This document shows, piece by piece, positions 51,251 through 58,893 of a DNA stretch of 64,000 nucleotides. The first letter of the stretch is position 1, and the number at the start of each line of letters is the position of its first letter. The stretch lies in the NCBI RefSeq assembly GCF_014681765.1, contig NZ_CP061498.1:186001-250000 (forward strand). Reading direction: 5' to 3'. A model generated the notes under the pieces. The model saw nothing but the letters and a program-made list of their open reading frames with translations. It ran no database searches and was not told the origin of the DNA. Both the position numbers and the translations under genes were made by a program. The DNA comes from Roseicitreum antarcticum. Its GTDB lineage: Bacteria; Pseudomonadota; Alphaproteobacteria; Rhodobacterales; Rhodobacteraceae.

Positions 51251-51820
51251 TTACGCGCCCCACGTGCGGTGGGGGCCGCAGTCCATGTGCACGAAATCCG
51301 ACCGGGAATAGCGGCCGACGCCGCCCGCGCGACAGGCCGCTGCGGCGCGCGCGATCTCATTGACCGACCGGCCGCGCAGCCGCAAATCGGCGGCTTCCCC
51401 GACCATGTGCAACGAGTTGCGGGCAACGCCGCTGGAACGGGCGCGCAGCATCGCGTTGGTTTCGGGCGAGCGGTAGCCCGACAGCAGCATGTAGGGCTCT
51501 GACGCGCGCAAGATGCGGTGGGACGCCGCCATGATGTCCAGCGTGCGCGTGTCGATGTTGATGATCTTGTTGTTGCGCCAGTCGCGGAAGAAATAATTCA
51601 CTTCGCGCAGCGCCTCGGGGATGTAATCGCCATCGACCCAATAGATCATGTCGAGCGTCTCGCCGGTGCGACCCGAATACAACTTGAGGCGTCGGATATC
51701 ACCCGCGCCGCGCAAGAAGCTGAAAGCATTCGCGAATGTTGGCGCCGCAGCCACCGTGGTTGCCGCGAAGATGCCAAGCACCCCACGTCTGGAGAGTGCC
51801 GGTCCGCGTGTCTGTGTCAT
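51251..51820 (-). CDS. DUF882/M15-type peptidase, Tat-exported
   Basis: 189 residues. The N-terminus holds a twin-arginine signal (LSRRGVLGIFAATTVAAAPTF). The mature part has the peptidase M15-like metal motifs SLHMVGEAADLRL (HxxGxAxD) and DFVHMD, so it is a likely zinc-dependent D,D-carboxypeptidase or murein hydrolase of the periplasm. It is divergent from an L,D-transpeptidase, a pairing common in alphaproteobacteria. Start at 51820 begins directly at the Tat signal. Confidence 0.88.
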   Translation of the reverse strand: MTQTRGPALSRRGVLGIFAATTVAAAPTFANAFSFLRGAGDIRRLKLYSGRTGETLDMIYWVDGDYIPEALREVNYFFRDWRNNKIINIDTRTLDIMAASHRILRASEPYMLLSGYRSPETNAMLRARSSGVARNSLHMVGEAADLRLRGRSVNEIARAAAACRAGGVGRYSRSDFVHMDCGPHRTWGA

Positions 51821-52243
51821 TCGGTCTGTCCCATCGTTTGGCTGCCTGTCAAAGCCCCGCAGGTCCGGCGTCGCGATCTTTTGCCGCTGATCCGCCGTGC
51901 GGGTGACGCCGCCCGCTGGTGCGACGATCAAGATTCGTATCGCATGTGTCGTTTACTAAACCAAGTTTTGATTCCTCCCCTGCCGCGCCCTGCCGCCGCG
52001 ATCGGCAAAACTCCGCTGATTGGCGCAAAGATTCTGCATCTGCGGCCAGAAAGCGACACATTTGCGGGAACCGGAGTGGCAAGGTTGACGTGACGACGTG
52101 AATTTTTGATTAAGATTCGTGGTTTATGACTGCTGGCGCAGATGTGTATGGACGCGGTGGGCGGTTTCTTGCCAAATGTGTTGAAATAGTCGTTACCACC
52201 GCGCCCATTGGGCTGCTGGCCTGAATAAGAACAAGGAAAAAAC
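51821..52243. other. Divergent control region with four GATTC sites
   Basis: About 420 bases between the DUF882 and L,D-transpeptidase genes with no coding frame of its own. Four GATTC words lie at 51932-51936, 51970-51974, 52030-52034 and 52114-52118, far denser than expected at this GC content. GANTC is the target of the cell-cycle methyltransferase CcrM, so the wall genes may respond to replication. Confidence 0.55.
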
Positions 52244-53878
52244 ATGATCCCGCAGGCAGTCGACATCCGCCAAGCCACATCGAAGCGCCAAACCGGCCTG
52301 CACAGCCTCATGGTCGGCATGGTCCTTTTTATCGGGCTGTTCATGTCATCGGTGTCGATGGCAGGCGCCCAAACTTTCAGCGCTTTCAAACAGGCCGTGG
52401 CCGAAGGGGCGGCTGGCGACACCGCAGTCTCGGCCTTCTACCGCGAAACCGGCTACGATTCGCTGTGGACCGGGCCGGATGACGCCGTGCGGCGCAGCGC
52501 CTTCCTGACGGCGATCCGTCGGGCGGATGACCACGGCCTGCCGGTCGCGCGATACGCCCCCGATGCGCTGATCGCGGCTTTCAGCCGGGTGGAGACGGAG
52601 CGCGACCGCGGCCTGCTGGAGGCTGAGGTCACGCGGCAATTCCTGCGCTTTGCCAACGACTTGCACAGTGGCCTTCTGGATCCGTCGCGCATCGACAGTG
52701 CCATCGTGCGGGAACTGCCCCGGCTGGACGCGCTGGCGGCACTGCATGATTTCGCCGAAGCCGCGCCGATGCAATACATGCGGGGGCTGGCCCCCGGCGC
52801 GCCGGAATATGCGCGCCTGTTCCGCGCCAAACAGCAATTGGAAGCCAGAATTGCGCAAGGTGGCTGGGGGCCTGCGGTGCCCGCGCGCGACCTGCGCCCC
52901 GGGCAATCCGGCGGGGCTGTCGTGGCATTGCGCAACCGGCTGATCGCGATGGAATATCTGCCCCGCTCGGCGTCGGCCAGCTATGACGGGGCCTTGCAGC
53001 GCGCAGTGCAGCAATTCCAGATCGCGCACAATTTTGAGGCCGACGGCATCGCCGGGCCCGAGACCCTGGCCGCAATCAATACCGACCCGTCAGAGCGGCT
53101 GAAAGCCATCATCGTCGCGATGGAGCGGGAGCGCTGGCTGAACATCCCGCGCGGCGACCGGCATGTCTGGGTCAACCTGACCGATTTTCACGCCCGCATC
53201 GTCGATTTCGATTCGGTGACTTTCGAGACGAAAGCGGTGATCGGGGCCACCGGGCAGAACCGCGAGACGCCCGAATTCTCGCACCGCATGCAGTATCTGG
53301 AGATCAACCCGGACTGGACGATGCCCCGCTCGATCCTGGCGCGCAGCTATTGGAACGGGCTTGCGGCGGGCGGGCACAGCTATTTGCAGCTGGTCGATTC
53401 CCGCGGCAATGTGGTGCCACGCGCCGCAGTGGATTTTTCGCGCTATTCGCCGCGCAATTTCCCCTTCAACGTGCGCCAGCCGCCGGGGCCGTCGAACCCG
53501 TTGGGCCGTGTGAAGTTCATGTTCCCCAACCCCTATGCAATCTATCTGCACGACAGCCCGGCGCGGTCGCTGTTCAACACAACGGTGCGGGCGCATTCCT
53601 CGGGCTGCGTGCGGCTGAACGACCCCGATGAATTCGCCTATGAGTTGCTGTCGCGGCAGACGGATGATCCCCGCGGGCTGTACCACAACACGCTGAATTC
53701 GGGCCAGCAGACACGTATCTACCTGGACGAACCCGTGCAGATCCACCTGGTTTACCGCACGGCCTTCACCTCGGTGCGCGGTGAGATGAACTACCGCGCC
53801 GATGTCTATGGCCGCGACGCGGCGATCTTTCGGGCGTTGCAAGCAGCCGGGGTGGTCTTGGGCGGCATTCAAAGCTAA
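52244..53878 (+). CDS. L,D-transpeptidase of the YcbB type
   Basis: 544 residues: signal/anchor (about 24-44), a scaffold domain, a peptidoglycan-binding domain (LRNRLIAMEYL ... FQIAHNFEADGIAGPETLAAIN, about 228-285) and a YkuD catalytic domain with SSGCVRLNDPDEFA, Cys as nucleophile. It makes 3-3 cross-links in peptidoglycan. Start has AAGGA upstream. Divergent from the M15-type peptidase. Confidence 0.92.
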   Translation: MIPQAVDIRQATSKRQTGLHSLMVGMVLFIGLFMSSVSMAGAQTFSAFKQAVAEGAAGDTAVSAFYRETGYDSLWTGPDDAVRRSAFLTAIRRADDHGLPVARYAPDALIAAFSRVETERDRGLLEAEVTRQFLRFANDLHSGLLDPSRIDSAIVRELPRLDALAALHDFAEAAPMQYMRGLAPGAPEYARLFRAKQQLEARIAQGGWGPAVPARDLRPGQSGGAVVALRNRLIAMEYLPRSASASYDGALQRAVQQFQIAHNFEADGIAGPETLAAINTDPSERLKAIIVAMERERWLNIPRGDRHVWVNLTDFHARIVDFDSVTFETKAVIGATGQNRETPEFSHRMQYLEINPDWTMPRSILARSYWNGLAAGGHSYLQLVDSRGNVVPRAAVDFSRYSPRNFPFNVRQPPGPSNPLGRVKFMFPNPYAIYLHDSPARSLFNTTVRAHSSGCVRLNDPDEFAYELLSRQTDDPRGLYHNTLNSGQQTRIYLDEPVQIHLVYRTAFTSVRGEMNYRADVYGRDAAIFRALQAAGVVLGGIQS

Positions 53879-53933: not shown

Positions 53934-55025
53934 ATGAAGTTTCAGCTGAGCGATATTGCCGCGGCGCTGGGCGCGCGGCTGGAAGGGCGTGGCGACCTGA
54001 CCGTCACACATGCGGCCGAACCTGCCGATGCCGGTCCCGATGCGCTGGCGCTGGCCTTGCAGCCCAAATTTGCCGAAGGGCTGGCACAGGGCCGCGCGCG
54101 TGCAGCATTGTTGTACGACGGTGCCGACTGGCGGGCGCTGGGGTTGGAAGCCGCGATTTTCGCGCCGCGCCCGCGCTATGCCATGTCCGGGCTGACCCGC
54201 GCGATGGATGCCGGACCTGATATTGCGCCCGGCATCCACGCCTCTGCCGTCATCGACCCTTCCGCCCGGATCGGGGCGGGCGCGCGGATCGGCCCGCTGG
54301 TGGTCGTGGGGCGCGACGTGGTGATCGGCGCGCGGGCGCGGATCGCCGCGCATGTCAGTATTGATGCGGGCGCGCAGATCGGGGATGACGCGCTGATCCT
54401 GCCCGGCGTGCGCATCGGCCATCACGTGCAAATCGGCGACCGTTTCATCGCGCAGCCCAACGCTGTTATCGGCGGCGACGGTTTCTCATTCGTGACGCCG
54501 GAAAAAAGCCGGGTCGAAGCGGTGCGTGAAACCCGCGCCCAGACCGAGACGGATACCGCCCAGCATTGGGAGCGGATCCATTCGCTGGGTACGGTCGTGA
54601 TCGGTGATGATGTGGAAATCGGCAGCACTGCCGCGATTGATCGGGGCACCATCCGCGCCACGCGCATCGGGTCGGGCACAAAGCTGGATAACATGGTGCA
54701 TATCGGGCATAATGTTGTCATCGGGCAAGATTGCCTGCTGTGCGGTCAGGTGGGGATTGCCGGATCTACGGTGCTGGGCGACCGCATCGTGCTGGCGGGC
54801 CGGGTCGCGGTGAATGACAATATCTTCGTCGGCGACGATGTGATCGCGGGCGGTGGCGCAATGATCTTCACCAACGTTCCTGCCGGGCGCGTCATCTGGG
54901 GGCATCCGGCGGTCAAGATGGAAACCCAGGTCGAGATCAACAAGGCGGTGCGCAGGCTGCCGCGTTTGTTTACACAAGTGGCCGAACTTCAGAAACTTGT
55001 TACACAGTCGCGCGATAAGGGGTAG
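53934..55025 (+). CDS. lpxD: UDP-3-O-acylglucosamine N-acyltransferase
   Basis: 363 residues. N-terminal uridine-binding domain, then a left-handed beta helix of hexapeptide repeats (SARIGAGARIGPLVVVGRDVVIG), catalytic His in MVHIGHNVVIG (near 250), and a C-terminal helix. LpxD attaches the amide-linked acyl chain of lipid A from acyl-ACP. The start at 53934 gives MKFQLSDIAAALGA. The next genes are an ACP and a ketosynthase, not fabZ/lpxA as in most genomes. Confidence 0.95.
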   Translation: MKFQLSDIAAALGARLEGRGDLTVTHAAEPADAGPDALALALQPKFAEGLAQGRARAALLYDGADWRALGLEAAIFAPRPRYAMSGLTRAMDAGPDIAPGIHASAVIDPSARIGAGARIGPLVVVGRDVVIGARARIAAHVSIDAGAQIGDDALILPGVRIGHHVQIGDRFIAQPNAVIGGDGFSFVTPEKSRVEAVRETRAQTETDTAQHWERIHSLGTVVIGDDVEIGSTAAIDRGTIRATRIGSGTKLDNMVHIGHNVVIGQDCLLCGQVGIAGSTVLGDRIVLAGRVAVNDNIFVGDDVIAGGGAMIFTNVPAGRVIWGHPAVKMETQVEINKAVRRLPRLFTQVAELQKLVTQSRDKG

Positions 55026-55074
55026 CATCTGCGGGCTGTGATATGCCCCGCATCAACAGTCGGAGACTTTGACT

Positions 55075-55341
55075 ATGACTTACGCACTCACGGACGAAGT
55101 GGTTGGAATCGTTGCCGAACAGGCGCTGTGTGACCCCAGGGACGTGTCGCTGGACGCCACGCTTTCTGAGCTGGGCATCGACAGCCTGGGCCTGGTGGAG
55201 TGCATTTTCGCCATCGAGGAACGCTTCGATGTCACGGTGCCCTTCAACGCCAACACCCCCGGCGACACCGGATTCGACACCCGCACGGTGCGGGCGCTGG
55301 TCGAAGGCGTCGAGAGTCTGGTGGCATTGCAAGCCGCATGA
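55075..55341 (+). CDS. Specialised acyl carrier protein
   Basis: 88 residues with the phosphopantetheine serine in ELGIDSLGLVECIF (near residue 36). The region after helix 2 (NANTPGDTGFDTRTV) is longer than in housekeeping AcpP, and the protein is not the very-long-chain AcpXL type. Sits 49 bases after lpxD, and its stop overlaps the ketosynthase ATG. GGAGAC lies upstream of the start. A TTG at 55069 is an alternative. Confidence 0.9.
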   Translation: MTYALTDEVVGIVAEQALCDPRDVSLDATLSELGIDSLGLVECIFAIEERFDVTVPFNANTPGDTGFDTRTVRALVEGVESLVALQAA

Positions 55342-56552
55342 GGCGGGTGGTCATCACCGGCGCAGGGACGGTCAATCCGCTGGGGCAGGGGGTGGCCGAG
55401 ACTTTTGCCGCAATGGCGGCAGGTCAGTGTGGCATCGGGCCGCTGGATTTCCGCGATGTGGAACGGCTGATCGTGCAGATCGGCGCGATGGTGAAAGACT
55501 GGGACGCCGAGGCGCGGTTCGACAGGTCGCAACTGGCGATGTACGACCGATCGACCCAGTTCGCGCTGGAGGCCGCGCGGCAGGCCGTCGCGCAATCCGG
55601 CCTCGATTTTGCGGCGCTGCCCGATCTTGCCGCACGCGCGGGTGTCATCATGGGGACGGCGGGCGGCGGGCTGACCACCTCTGACGACAGCTACCGCGCG
55701 ATTTATGAAGAGCGTAAGGCCCGCGTCCATCCGTTCATCGTGCCAAAGCTGATGCATAATGCGGCGGCGAGCCATATCTCCATGACCTACGGTGTTCAGG
55801 GGCCGGTTTTCACGGTTTCGACCGCCTGCGCCTCCAGTAACCATGCGATGGGGCTGGCGTTTCAGATGGTGCGGTCGGGTGCGGTGCCGGTGATGCTGAC
55901 CGGCGGCGCGGAATCCATGATGTGTTTTGGCGGGCTGAAGGCGTGGGAGGGGCTGCGCGTCATGTCGCGCACCGGCTGCCGCCCGTTTTCGGCGGACCGT
56001 GACGGCATGGTGCAGGGCGAAGGCGCGGGCGTCGTGGTCATGGAAGACCGCGAACATGCCATCGCGCGCGGCGCGCCGATCCTGGCCGAGGTGCTGGGCT
56101 TTGCCATGACCTCGGACGCCTCGGACATCGTGATGCCGTCGGTCGATGGCGCAGTGCGCGCCATGGCAGGCGCGCTGCGTGACGGCGGTATCGCCCCCGA
56201 ACGCGTGGGCTATATCAATGCGCATGGCACCGGCACGCAGGCCAATGACCGGTCCGAGGCCGCAGCCATCGGGCAGGTGTTCGGCGCGACGCCGCCGCGC
56301 GTATCGTCGACCAAGGCGATGCACGGCCACCTGATCGGCGCGGCGGGCGCCGTGGAGCTTATGGCCTGCCTGATGGCTTTGCAGGACGGCATCATCGCCC
56401 CCACGGTGAACCACACCGGCCCCGACCCGGACTGCGCGCTGGATGTGGTGCCAAATGCGGCGGTGCTGGCGGATCTGGATGTGGTGATGACGAATTCCTT
56501 CGCCTTTGGCGGGCTGAACGCGGTGCTGGCGCTTGGGCGGGACGCGGGGTGA
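55338..56552 (+). CDS. 3-oxoacyl-ACP synthase (FabF/KAS II type) beside lpxD
   Basis: 404 residues of the thiolase fold with the Cys-His-His triad: STACASSNHAM, NAHGTGTQAND and KAMHGHLIGAAGAVE (with the conserved Lys). Condenses acyl-ACP with malonyl-ACP. Coupled by ATGA to a dedicated ACP and preceded by lpxD, so its product probably serves lipid A rather than bulk fatty acids. Confidence 0.92.
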   Translation: MRRVVITGAGTVNPLGQGVAETFAAMAAGQCGIGPLDFRDVERLIVQIGAMVKDWDAEARFDRSQLAMYDRSTQFALEAARQAVAQSGLDFAALPDLAARAGVIMGTAGGGLTTSDDSYRAIYEERKARVHPFIVPKLMHNAAASHISMTYGVQGPVFTVSTACASSNHAMGLAFQMVRSGAVPVMLTGGAESMMCFGGLKAWEGLRVMSRTGCRPFSADRDGMVQGEGAGVVVMEDREHAIARGAPILAEVLGFAMTSDASDIVMPSVDGAVRAMAGALRDGGIAPERVGYINAHGTGTQANDRSEAAAIGQVFGATPPRVSSTKAMHGHLIGAAGAVELMACLMALQDGIIAPTVNHTGPDPDCALDVVPNAAVLADLDVVMTNSFAFGGLNAVLALGRDAG

Positions 56553-56609: not shown

Positions 56610-56661
56610 CTGTGGTTTCGGGCTGTGGTTTCCGCCTTTGGTTTCCGCCTTTGGTTTCCGC
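56610..56661. repeat. Tandem 13-bp units between the ketosynthase and murB
   Basis: CTTTGGTTTCCGC at 56636-56648 and 56649-56661, with CTGTGGTTTCCGC at 56623-56635 and a more diverged copy before. Otherwise the gap 56553-56817 shows no gene. Confidence 0.85.
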
Positions 56662-56817
56662 ATGCCCGGAACGTGCTTTATCCGTTGCCTGTTGCGTCTG
56701 ACGGGGCGGTGGAAGGGCGGTTGAGCGCGACGCGGGGGGCGCCGGTCGCGCGTAGACCTGCCGATGCGCGGTATGGGGCCTTGCGCGGCGTGTGGCCTTT
56801 CCGGTAAATCCCGGCGC

Positions 56818-57762
56818 ATGAGCAATACATCCCCCTTTCCGACCCCGCGCGGCGCCCTGACCCAGGACCGTGCCCTGGCCGATCTGACCTGGCTGCGCGT
56901 TGGCGGCCCGGCGGACTGGTTGTTTCAACCCGCCGATGCGGACGATCTGTCGGACTTCCTCGCCGCGCTCGACCCCGGTGTGCCGGTGTTTCCCATGGGT
57001 GTCGGGTCGAACCTGATTGTGCGTGACGGCGGGCTGCGCGCCGTGGTGATCCGGCTGGGCCGGGGGTTCAACGGGATCGAGGTTGCGGGCAATATTGTCA
57101 CGGCGGGGGCCGCCGCCCTTGATGCCCATGTGGCGCGACGCGCAGCGCAGGCGGGGGTGGACCTGACATTCCTGCGCACCGTTCCCGGCAGTATCGGCGG
57201 TGCGGTGCGGATGAATGCGGGCTGTTATGGCACCTATGTCGCGGACCATCTGACCCATGTCGATGTGGTGCTGCGCGATGGCAGCGCGGCCCGGCTGGCG
57301 GCTGGCGACCTTCGCCTTGGATACCGGCATTCCGATTTGCCCGACGGTGCGGTGATTGTCTCTGCGACGTTCAGCGCGCCGGCAGGCGACCCTGACGCGC
57401 TGGCCGCGCGCATGGATGACCAGATTGCCAGGCGCGACGCGACCCAACCCACGAAAGACCGCAGCGCGGGCAGCACGTTCCGCAATCCGGCGGGTTTCTC
57501 ATCAACAGGTCGTGCGGATGACCGGCATGATCTGAAGGCCTGGAAAGTGATCGAGGACGCAGGACTTAGGGGTTTTACCCTTGGCCATGCCCAGATGTCG
57601 CCCAAGCACCCGAACTTTTTGATCAATACCGGGGGGGCCAGCGCGGCCGAACTGGAAGGTTTGGGCGAAGAGGTGCGAAAAAGGGTTTTCCAACACAGCG
57701 GAATTTCGCTAGACTGGGAAATTATCCGGATCGGTGATCCGCGCCCCGCCGGGATTGCCTGA
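56818..57762 (+). CDS. murB: UDP-N-acetylenolpyruvoylglucosamine reductase
   Basis: 314 residues of the type II (no extra loop) Mur[16 protein letters not shown] for [19 protein letters not shown], the catalytic Ser in [10 protein letters not shown] and the terminal Glu in [18 protein letters not shown]. It completes UDP-MurNAc synthesis with NADPH. Start at 56818 is the ATG that begins [12 protein letters not shown]; upstream codons are non-coding. First gene of the division cluster in view; murC would lie outside. Confidence 0.95.
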
Positions 57763-57978: not shown

Positions 57979-58893
57979 ATGTCGAGCAGGACAGCCCCGA
58001 AGGTATGTGTACTGATGGGTGGCCCCTCGGCTGAGCGCGAGGTGTCCCTGTCGACCGGTCGCGAATGCGCGGCTGCCCTTCGGGACGGCGGATTTACAGT
58101 CGTGGAACTGGACGCGCAGGCCGATCTGGCCGCGCGGCTGGTGGAAATTGCGCCCGATGTGGTGTTCAACGCCCTGCATGGCCGCTGGGGCGAGGACGGC
58201 TGCGTGCAGGGCATTCTGGAATGGCTGCGCATTCCTTATACGCATTCGGGCGTGCTGGCCTCGGCGCTGGCCATGGACAAGACGCGCAGCAAGGATGTGT
58301 TTCGCGCCGCTGGTCTGCCAGTTGTCGAAAGCGTGCTGGCGCCGCGCGATGAGGTCGCATCGCGCCATGTGATGCCGCCGCCCTATGTGGTGAAGCCCAA
58401 TAACGAGGGGTCTTCGGTCGGGGTGTATCTGGTGCATGACGCGGCCAACAGCCCGCCACAACTGGACGCCGCGATGCCCGAGACGGTGATGGTGGAAGCC
58501 TTCGCGCCGGGGCGCGAACTGACCACCACCGTCATGGGCGACCGCGCGCTGACCGTCACCGACATCTTGACCGATGGCTGGTATGATTACGATGCCAAGT
58601 ACAAGCCCGGCGGCTCGCGCCATGTCGTGCCCGCCGATGTGCCGCAGGTGATCTTTGACGCCTGCATGGAATACGCACAGCGCGCGCATGATGCGTTGGG
58701 CTGTCGGGGCCTGTCGCGCACCGATTTCCGCTGGGACGCGGCGCGGGGCCTTGATGGGCTGGTGCTGCTGGAGACCAACACCCAGCCCGGGATGACGCCG
58801 ACCTCGCTGTCGCCCGAACAGGCGGCGCGCGCGGGCATCAGCTTTCCCGAGCTGTGCCGCTGGATGATCGGGGATGCCTCATGCGACCGCTAG
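57979..58893 (+). CDS. ddl: D-alanine--D-alanine ligase
   Basis: 304 residues, ATP-grasp ligase: MGGPSAEREVSLSTG near the start, HGRWGEDGCVQG, VVKPNNEGSSVGVYLV (ATP), GRELTTTVMG and ETNTQPGMT for metal and substrate. Makes the D-Ala-D-Ala end of peptidoglycan precursors. Overlaps ftsQ by 13 bases. Confidence 0.96.
   Translation: MSSRTAPKVCVLMGGPSAEREVSLSTGRECAAALRDGGFTVVELDAQADLAARLVEIAPDVVFNALHGRWGEDGCVQGILEWLRIPYTHSGVLASALAMDKTRSKDVFRAAGLPVVESVLAPRDEVASRHVMPPPYVVKPNNEGSSVGVYLVHDAANSPPQLDAAMPETVMVEAFAPGRELTTTVMGDRALTVTDILTDGWYDYDAKYKPGGSRHVVPADVPQVIFDACMEYAQRAHDALGCRGLSRTDFRWDAARGLDGLVLLETNTQPGMTPTSLSPEQAARAGISFPELCRWMIGDASCDR

Follow-up and report, generated by a model that had tools for sequence, protein, structure and literature searches.

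The window analysed here, a stretch of 64,000 nucleotides from the Roseicitreum antarcticum genome (contig NZ_CP061498.1, positions 186,001 to 250,000), contains at 53934-56552 the genes of an LpxD-type N-acyltransferase, an acyl carrier protein (ACP) and a ketosynthase (KS), which stand in series and in one direction. This trio very likely represents a dedicated acyl-supply cassette for LpxD. In the fuller reading proposed here, to which a probability of roughly one half is given, the cassette evades the ketoreductase FabG, and a co-evolved LpxD subtype directly receives from it a 3-oxo chain that has not been reduced. The cassette would have taken the place of the ordinary lpxD in a rhodobacteracean ancestor, would be spread over many alphaproteobacterial families, one of which also has a complete ordinary lpx locus, and would explain the 3-oxo chains of Rhodobacter lipid A.

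Amide-linked 3-oxo chains are described in the lipid A of Rhodobacter sphaeroides and R. capsulatus (PMC5923411), with the remark that 3-oxo acids were missed by the typical fatty acid procedure. The antagonist eritoran was modelled on the lipid A of R. sphaeroides (PMC5923411, PMC7956469). In the portion of the open-licence literature that was available no account of the origin of the 3-oxo group was found. If the cassette is the 3-oxo source, it could explain where this unusual chain of Rhodobacter endotoxin comes from: the lipid A branch would be fed by a chain that does not come from the general fatty acid cycle, genomes could be screened for the gene set to predict the chemistry of their lipid A, and a second case after NodF-NodE would be available of a private carrier that keeps a partly processed chain for glucosamine N-acylation.

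The gene trio and the only lpxD of the genome

The reading frames of the window place lpxD, which encodes a predicted UDP-3-O-acyl-glucosamine N-acyltransferase of 363 residues termed here subtype 2, at 53934..55025 on the plus strand, followed on the same strand by the genes of the putatively dedicated ACP (55075..55341; 88 residues, with the serine in LGIDSLG) and of the KS (55338..56552; 404 residues), the ACP stop codon and the KS ATG at 55338 overlapping as ATGA. The tight series, the ATGA overlap and the lack of an adjacent ketoreductase or dehydratase, all described in the initial annotation, were confirmed, and neither enzyme is encoded among the genes neighbouring the trio, namely those of a MepK endopeptidase and an L,D-transpeptidase-like protein on one side and murB and ddl on the other.

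LpxD scores over the cut-offs of the NCBIfam equivalog TIGR01853 (260.9 bits against 242.5) and of NF002060 (298.1 against 207), while its N-terminal domain PF04613 obtained 27.7 bits against 30.8 in one search and 30.8 bits, over the cut-off, in another. No other lpxD was found in the genome. PF04613 has one match there, and the whole-genome search with the window LpxD returned the protein itself, two matches at the lpxA locus that share a frame of 275 residues, and a weak one (24%) in a frame of 204 residues. The lpxA locus, in which lpxD is absent, has the order bamA-skp-fabZ-lpxA-lpxI-lpxB, the names being given by reading translations, and those of skp and lpxI presumptively by the usual gene order. 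Since a private ACP and KS thus stand beside the only N-acyltransferase and without a reductase, a dedicated chain is suggested.

The ordinary arrangement was followed in 25 alphaproteobacterial genomes from outside the family, of which five had no match and one (G543) had the triplet. In the remaining 19, all of them with an ordinary lpxD, this gene sits in the lpxA locus (19/19), and the fetched loci contain no KS match and no ACP match above 40 bits; in two of these genomes, G541 and G215, another lpxD-like gene is present at a different site.

LpxD as a distinct subtype

Judged from alignment and phylogeny, LpxD of the trio is a distinct subtype that forms a separate clade. In a tree from which the insertion columns were excluded, and which took 80 of 120 rows including 15 of the 55 of the family, the 39 subtype rows fall into a single clade (SH-aLRT 100), within which the 15 family rows make up another (99). 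Subtype members without the KS are scattered over this tree, so that at least 3 changes are required.

E. coli LpxD (b0179) of the Raetz pathway belongs to the same TIGR01853 and NF002060 family, and the columns of its His239, Gly257 and Asp232 are kept in the window protein; the first two are intact in 55/55 family rows, the catalytic histidine being His259 of the window LpxD (54708..54710, plus strand). According to a review, the acyl chains of E. coli LpxD are lined by F183, the 3-hydroxyl is contacted by D232 and Q236, G257 is the oxyanion donor, N310 and R314 are at the phosphate of the carrier, and H276 is a pyrophosphate contact whose exchange in H276A lowers kcat 32-fold (PMC6286764). 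Subtype 2 differs from the E. coli enzyme in its position away from the lpxA locus, in a loop insertion and in the serines at columns 197 (79/79 subtype rows) and 184 (75/79). The insertion, at about residues 187-213 of the window LpxD (54492..54572, plus strand), falls between the columns of E. coli residues 185 and 195 and directly follows the F183 column, beside the acyl pocket; the loop region measures 25-33 residues in 79/79 subtype rows against 9-11 in the 39/39 other rows counted. These numbers are rows, and a few genomes occur twice; L022 and L035, with a stop inside the stretch, were excluded from alignment A3, the residue counts do not include L195 (the same gene as L082) or L217 (a second piece from G426), and two lone gammaproteobacterial LpxDs (G572, G575) were counted in no residue group.

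Two further differences are seen in the family. At column 315, which would touch the ACP, to judge from its neighbour R314, 31/32 ordinary rows are basic, whereas 49/55 family rows are acidic. At column 276, Asn replaces the E. coli histidine in 51/55 family rows, His being kept in 4/55, and the alignment columns place the Asn of the window at residue 296 (54819..54821, plus strand). This Asn was considered as a mark of 3-oxo use and rejected as a general one, as His is present in 24/24 out-of-family subtype rows and in 4/4 Halorhodospira-like rows; column 236, the other contact of the 3-hydroxyl, was indecisive, with Gln, His or Met in several groups. A single-sequence AlphaFold model of LpxD reached a pLDDT of 53.5 and was not used.

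Ketosynthase and acyl carrier protein

The KS is FabF-like, as initially annotated, and stands apart from FabF and FabB. It belongs to the same family as these synthases, shares their Cys-His-Lys-His catalytic set and reaches 402.7 bits, over the cut-off of 387, on NF005589, a broader subfamily model named beta-ketoacyl-ACP synthase II; in contrast, it scores 421.0 on the FabF equivalog TIGR03150, under the cut-off of 493.75. The active-site Cys164 (55827..55829, plus strand) and His296, Lys326 and His331 are intact, all four being invariant in 16/16 rows. The genome has its own FabF (623.5 on TIGR03150), located elsewhere on a 16-kb stretch that also carries an AcpP-like gene, and at another place its own FabB (672.8 on NF005935, cut-off 630), and therefore the triplet KS is an additional synthase. 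Its identity is 42% to the FabF and 36% to the FabB of the genome, and 47% to a KS encoded in the nod cluster of Rhizobium leguminosarum. This KS follows an ACP and has genes of a LysR regulator and a sugar O-acetyltransferase on either side, a position that marks it as NodE.

In the KS tree a branch with SH-aLRT 99 separates 12 FabF/FabB-like rows from the triplet KS. On the side of the triplet KS are also further synthases from outside the family, for which an adjoining ACP match was found in 10 of the 19 regions examined. The family KS group in a single clade (99). The KS and LpxD trees have three subgroups in common: G543/G769/G921/G851, G836/G907/G651 and G736/G756/G631, the last one in the LpxD tree only within a six-row clade.

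The ACP was initially annotated as non-standard, and the family models agree with this: it matches PF00550 and is under the cut-offs of all its 13 listed NCBIfam families, with 37.2 bits on the AcpP equivalog TIGR00517 (cut-off 70.45) and 27.3 bits on NF005079, presumably the AcpXL family, far below its cut-off of 83. The phosphopantetheine attachment residue Ser37 (55183..55185, plus strand) is invariant in 21/21 rows, and the column of AcpP Asp38 is Gly in 52/55 family ACP rows.

Related ACP-KS pairs were also observed without lpxD (L086, L088, L083, L074, L318), and in Xanthomonas sacchari such a pair without lpxD adjoins genes of a class III aminotransferase and an MtnX-like phosphatase.

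Distribution of the trio

The triplet KS is present in 196/196 genomes of the order sample, all of them from one family (88 genera), called here Rhodobacteraceae from the best named matches, Paracoccus and Pseudorhodobacter. Loci were fetched from 63 family genomes, a non-random set made of the best-scoring KS, the family members of the phylum sample and the weakest KS of the order sample; the ordered lpxD-ACP-KS series is found in 62 of them, and thus it is not a chance neighbourhood. Measured from the aligned KS start, ACP and KS overlap by 4 bases in 16/63 and are separated by a gap of no more than 14 bases in 52/63. Among the named genomes, Paracoccus ferrooxidans has an annotated triplet in an order that matches the window (DUF882, peptidoglycan-binding protein, lpxD, ACP, KS), and neighbouring LpxD and KS matches are present in P. 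versutus, P. pantotrophus and Pseudorhodobacter turbinis.

The profile of the window LpxD was further applied to 385 genomes of the class at 1e-50 and gave 74 matches, which include 5 from the family, 24 from outside it with 336-484 bits, and 45 other out-of-family matches with no more than 248 bits. A KS of at least 420 bits on the triplet profile is present in 15 of the 24 out-of-family subtype genomes, the other KS of these 15 having at most 344 bits. Thirteen of the 15 have the three genes immediately one behind the other in the order lpxD-ACP-KS; G851 has a contig end just past lpxD, and ACP-KS open another contig, and in G769 the ACP is behind lpxD and the KS on another contig.

The out-of-family trios are mostly in unrelated surroundings, as judged on the gene that immediately follows the KS: tested for 10 of the 13 loci, this gene belonged to eight different protein kinds or had no match, and no FabG-type reductase and no dehydratase was among these first genes. 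In one family, f163, the three genomes (3/3; loci L248, L249 and L255 with L302-L304) have both a complete ordinary bamA-lpxD-fabZ-lpxA-lpxB locus and a second set, lpxB-lpxD-ACP-KS.

Proposed mechanism and precedents

The trio would act as a self-contained acyl supply for LpxD, which catalyses step three of the lipid A pathway. The KS would add a malonyl unit to a C12 starter and the product would remain on the private ACP as 3-oxo-tetradecanoyl-ACP; as a presumably poor substrate for the general ketoreductase FabG, this ACP would keep the chain unreduced, and the co-encoded LpxD would receive it, resulting in an amide-linked 3-oxo chain on UDP-glucosamine. It is probable that LpxD takes its chain from the private ACP and plausible that the KS product is used without reduction, and for the chain we infer a length of 14; LpxD probably takes 3-hydroxy chains as well. 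As to the cassette delivering a 3-oxo chain, the balance is tipped slightly in favour. The amide-linked 3-oxo chain is the chemical oddity of this lipid A, and direct use of the condensation product, shielded from FabG by the special carrier, would be the simplest reading. The direct use of 3-oxoacyl-ACP by N-acyl-homoserine lactone synthases is a precedent for amide formation.

The initial annotation had already proposed that the KS makes a 3-oxoacyl chain on the special ACP which escapes reduction and is handed to LpxD. Its view of the trio as a unit is strengthened by the sole lpxD, the series in 13 out-of-family genomes, the distinct LpxD subtype and a KS apart from FabF and FabB with 47% identity to NodE, whereas its 3-oxo product is still something that we infer.

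The closest likeness is that to NodF-NodE(-NodA) of rhizobia, in which an adjacent private ACP and KS (47% identical to the triplet KS) feed a glucosamine N-acyltransferase; the mode would be alike, with a special, incompletely reduced chain made for glucosamine N-acylation. In contrast, NodA acts on a chitooligosaccharide, while LpxD here would act on UDP-glucosamine, and the triplet ACP is only 28% identical to NodF over 65 residues. Linked nod genes and a NodA partner are absent beside the trio, where the partner is LpxD and the neighbours are cell-wall genes. The AcpXL cluster of Rhizobiales for very-long-chain acylation similarly has a special ACP and synthases dedicated to lipid A; it contains two synthases, fabZ, a dehydrogenase and lpxXL, and feeds the late acyltransferase LpxXL. 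Unlike in that cluster, no linked fabZ, second synthase, dehydrogenase or lpxXL is found beside the trio.

Opposing evidence and alternative explanations

A number of observations weigh against the proposed use of an unreduced chain by a co-evolved LpxD. The D232 column is kept in 55/55 family rows and, as this residue contacts the 3-hydroxyl, 3-hydroxy chains may still be substrates of LpxD as judged by its residues. Columns 276 and 315 are not changed throughout the out-of-family triplets, and column 315 is mixed in the 15 out-of-family rows with the KS, 3 of them basic. Nine of the 24 out-of-family subtype genomes have only KS of at most 344 bits and so are without the triplet KS. The out-of-family triplet KS do not form one clade and have KS without lpxD among them, and G632 and G796 are placed differently in the KS and LpxD trees. 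In one locus of f163 (L255) a gene of a NAD-binding GFO/IDH/MocA oxidoreductase follows the KS. The one family exception, G141 (L307, L312, L313), has kept the transpeptidase-like gene, ACP and KS and has no lpxD between the former gene and ACP-KS or within about 25 kb; the whole-genome query with E. coli LpxD at 1e-12 gave no match there, this query being weak for subtype 2.

The lipid A chemistry itself points partly in the same direction. R. sphaeroides is reported with 3-OH-14:0 at both amides (PMC7956469), and amide-linked 3-oxo-14:0 is also found in Spiribacter and Halorhodospira lipid A, the 3-oxo chain of Spiribacter being limited to one glucosamine (PMC5923411), which fits a late oxidation and suggests another route there. 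Halorhodospira-like genomes were considered as an independent test of the link between cassette and 3-oxo chain and rejected, the cassette being absent: in four Halorhodospira-like Ectothiorhodospiraceae bins (G567-G570; loci L188-L191 and L269-L272) neither the cassette nor such a KS was found. Their bamA-fabZ-lpxA-lpxB locus is without lpxD, and the single lpxD lies elsewhere, with no ACP or KS of the triplet kind seen beside it; in the LpxD tree their LpxD groups with gammaproteobacterial LpxDs, outside subtype 2. The tie to Halorhodospira is photoactive yellow protein, with an identity of 95% in G567 and 90% in G568 and of only 78% and 77% in G569 and G570, which is no more than in many Halomonas records, G569 and G570 being joined to the former two by the LpxD tree. 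The bins have 1.8-2.5 Mb and may be incomplete, and lpxD of G567 is at a contig end. Their lack of the cassette means that 3-oxo lipid A probably needs no cassette.

The retained D232, the 3-OH-14:0 amides of R. sphaeroides, the single 3-oxo position of Spiribacter and the Halorhodospira-like bins would all suit an alternative in which the supply is dedicated but general FabG reduces the chain before LpxD, ACP and KS fix the chain length or a separate lipid A pool, and the 3-oxo group arises from later oxidation of the finished amide chain. We regard it as unlikely, though deserving serious attention. E. coli LpxD picks C14 unaided and is 10-fold less active with a C12 analogue (PMC6286764), so that it would need no additional KS and ACP to set the length of the chain, and the loci do not share an oxidoreductase gene behind the KS (1 of the 10 genes tested).

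Another possibility is that ACP and KS make a different special chain, unsaturated or longer as with NodF-NodE, to be used by LpxD or to end up in a fraction of the lipid A molecules. The 47% identity to NodE favours it, as does the loss of polyunsaturated and of the longest chains upon nodE deletion (PMC5080398, where the names NodE and NodF are swapped); however, the available parts of PMC5923411 and PMC7956469 name no unusual unsaturated amide chain for Rhodobacter lipid A, and this explanation appears quite improbable. It is hardly to be expected that ACP and KS serve a different pathway, for example that of an aminolipid, and adjoin lpxD by shared cluster ancestry, as ACP-KS of G141 without an adjacent lpxD and the related KS that have a neighbouring ACP and no neighbouring lpxD in 10 of 19 other regions from outside the family might suggest, since the trio is intact in 13 out-of-family genomes with mostly unrelated neighbours and three subgroups recur in both trees.

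Flanking genes

Both flanks of the trio consist of cell-wall genes. Upstream of lpxD are the gene of the MepK endopeptidase (51251-51931, minus strand) and, directly adjacent, the L,D-transpeptidase-like gene (52244..53878, plus strand), whose model score is under its cut-off; the latter is a conserved neighbour, being upstream also in loci L307, L308, L309 and L311 and, in the form of a peptidoglycan-binding protein, in P. ferrooxidans, and probably stands outside the acyl cassette. Downstream of the KS follow murB (56818-57762) and ddl (57979-58893). Between the KS and murB, at 56612-56662, a short repeat of approximately ggtttccgccttt was read by eye in near three copies.

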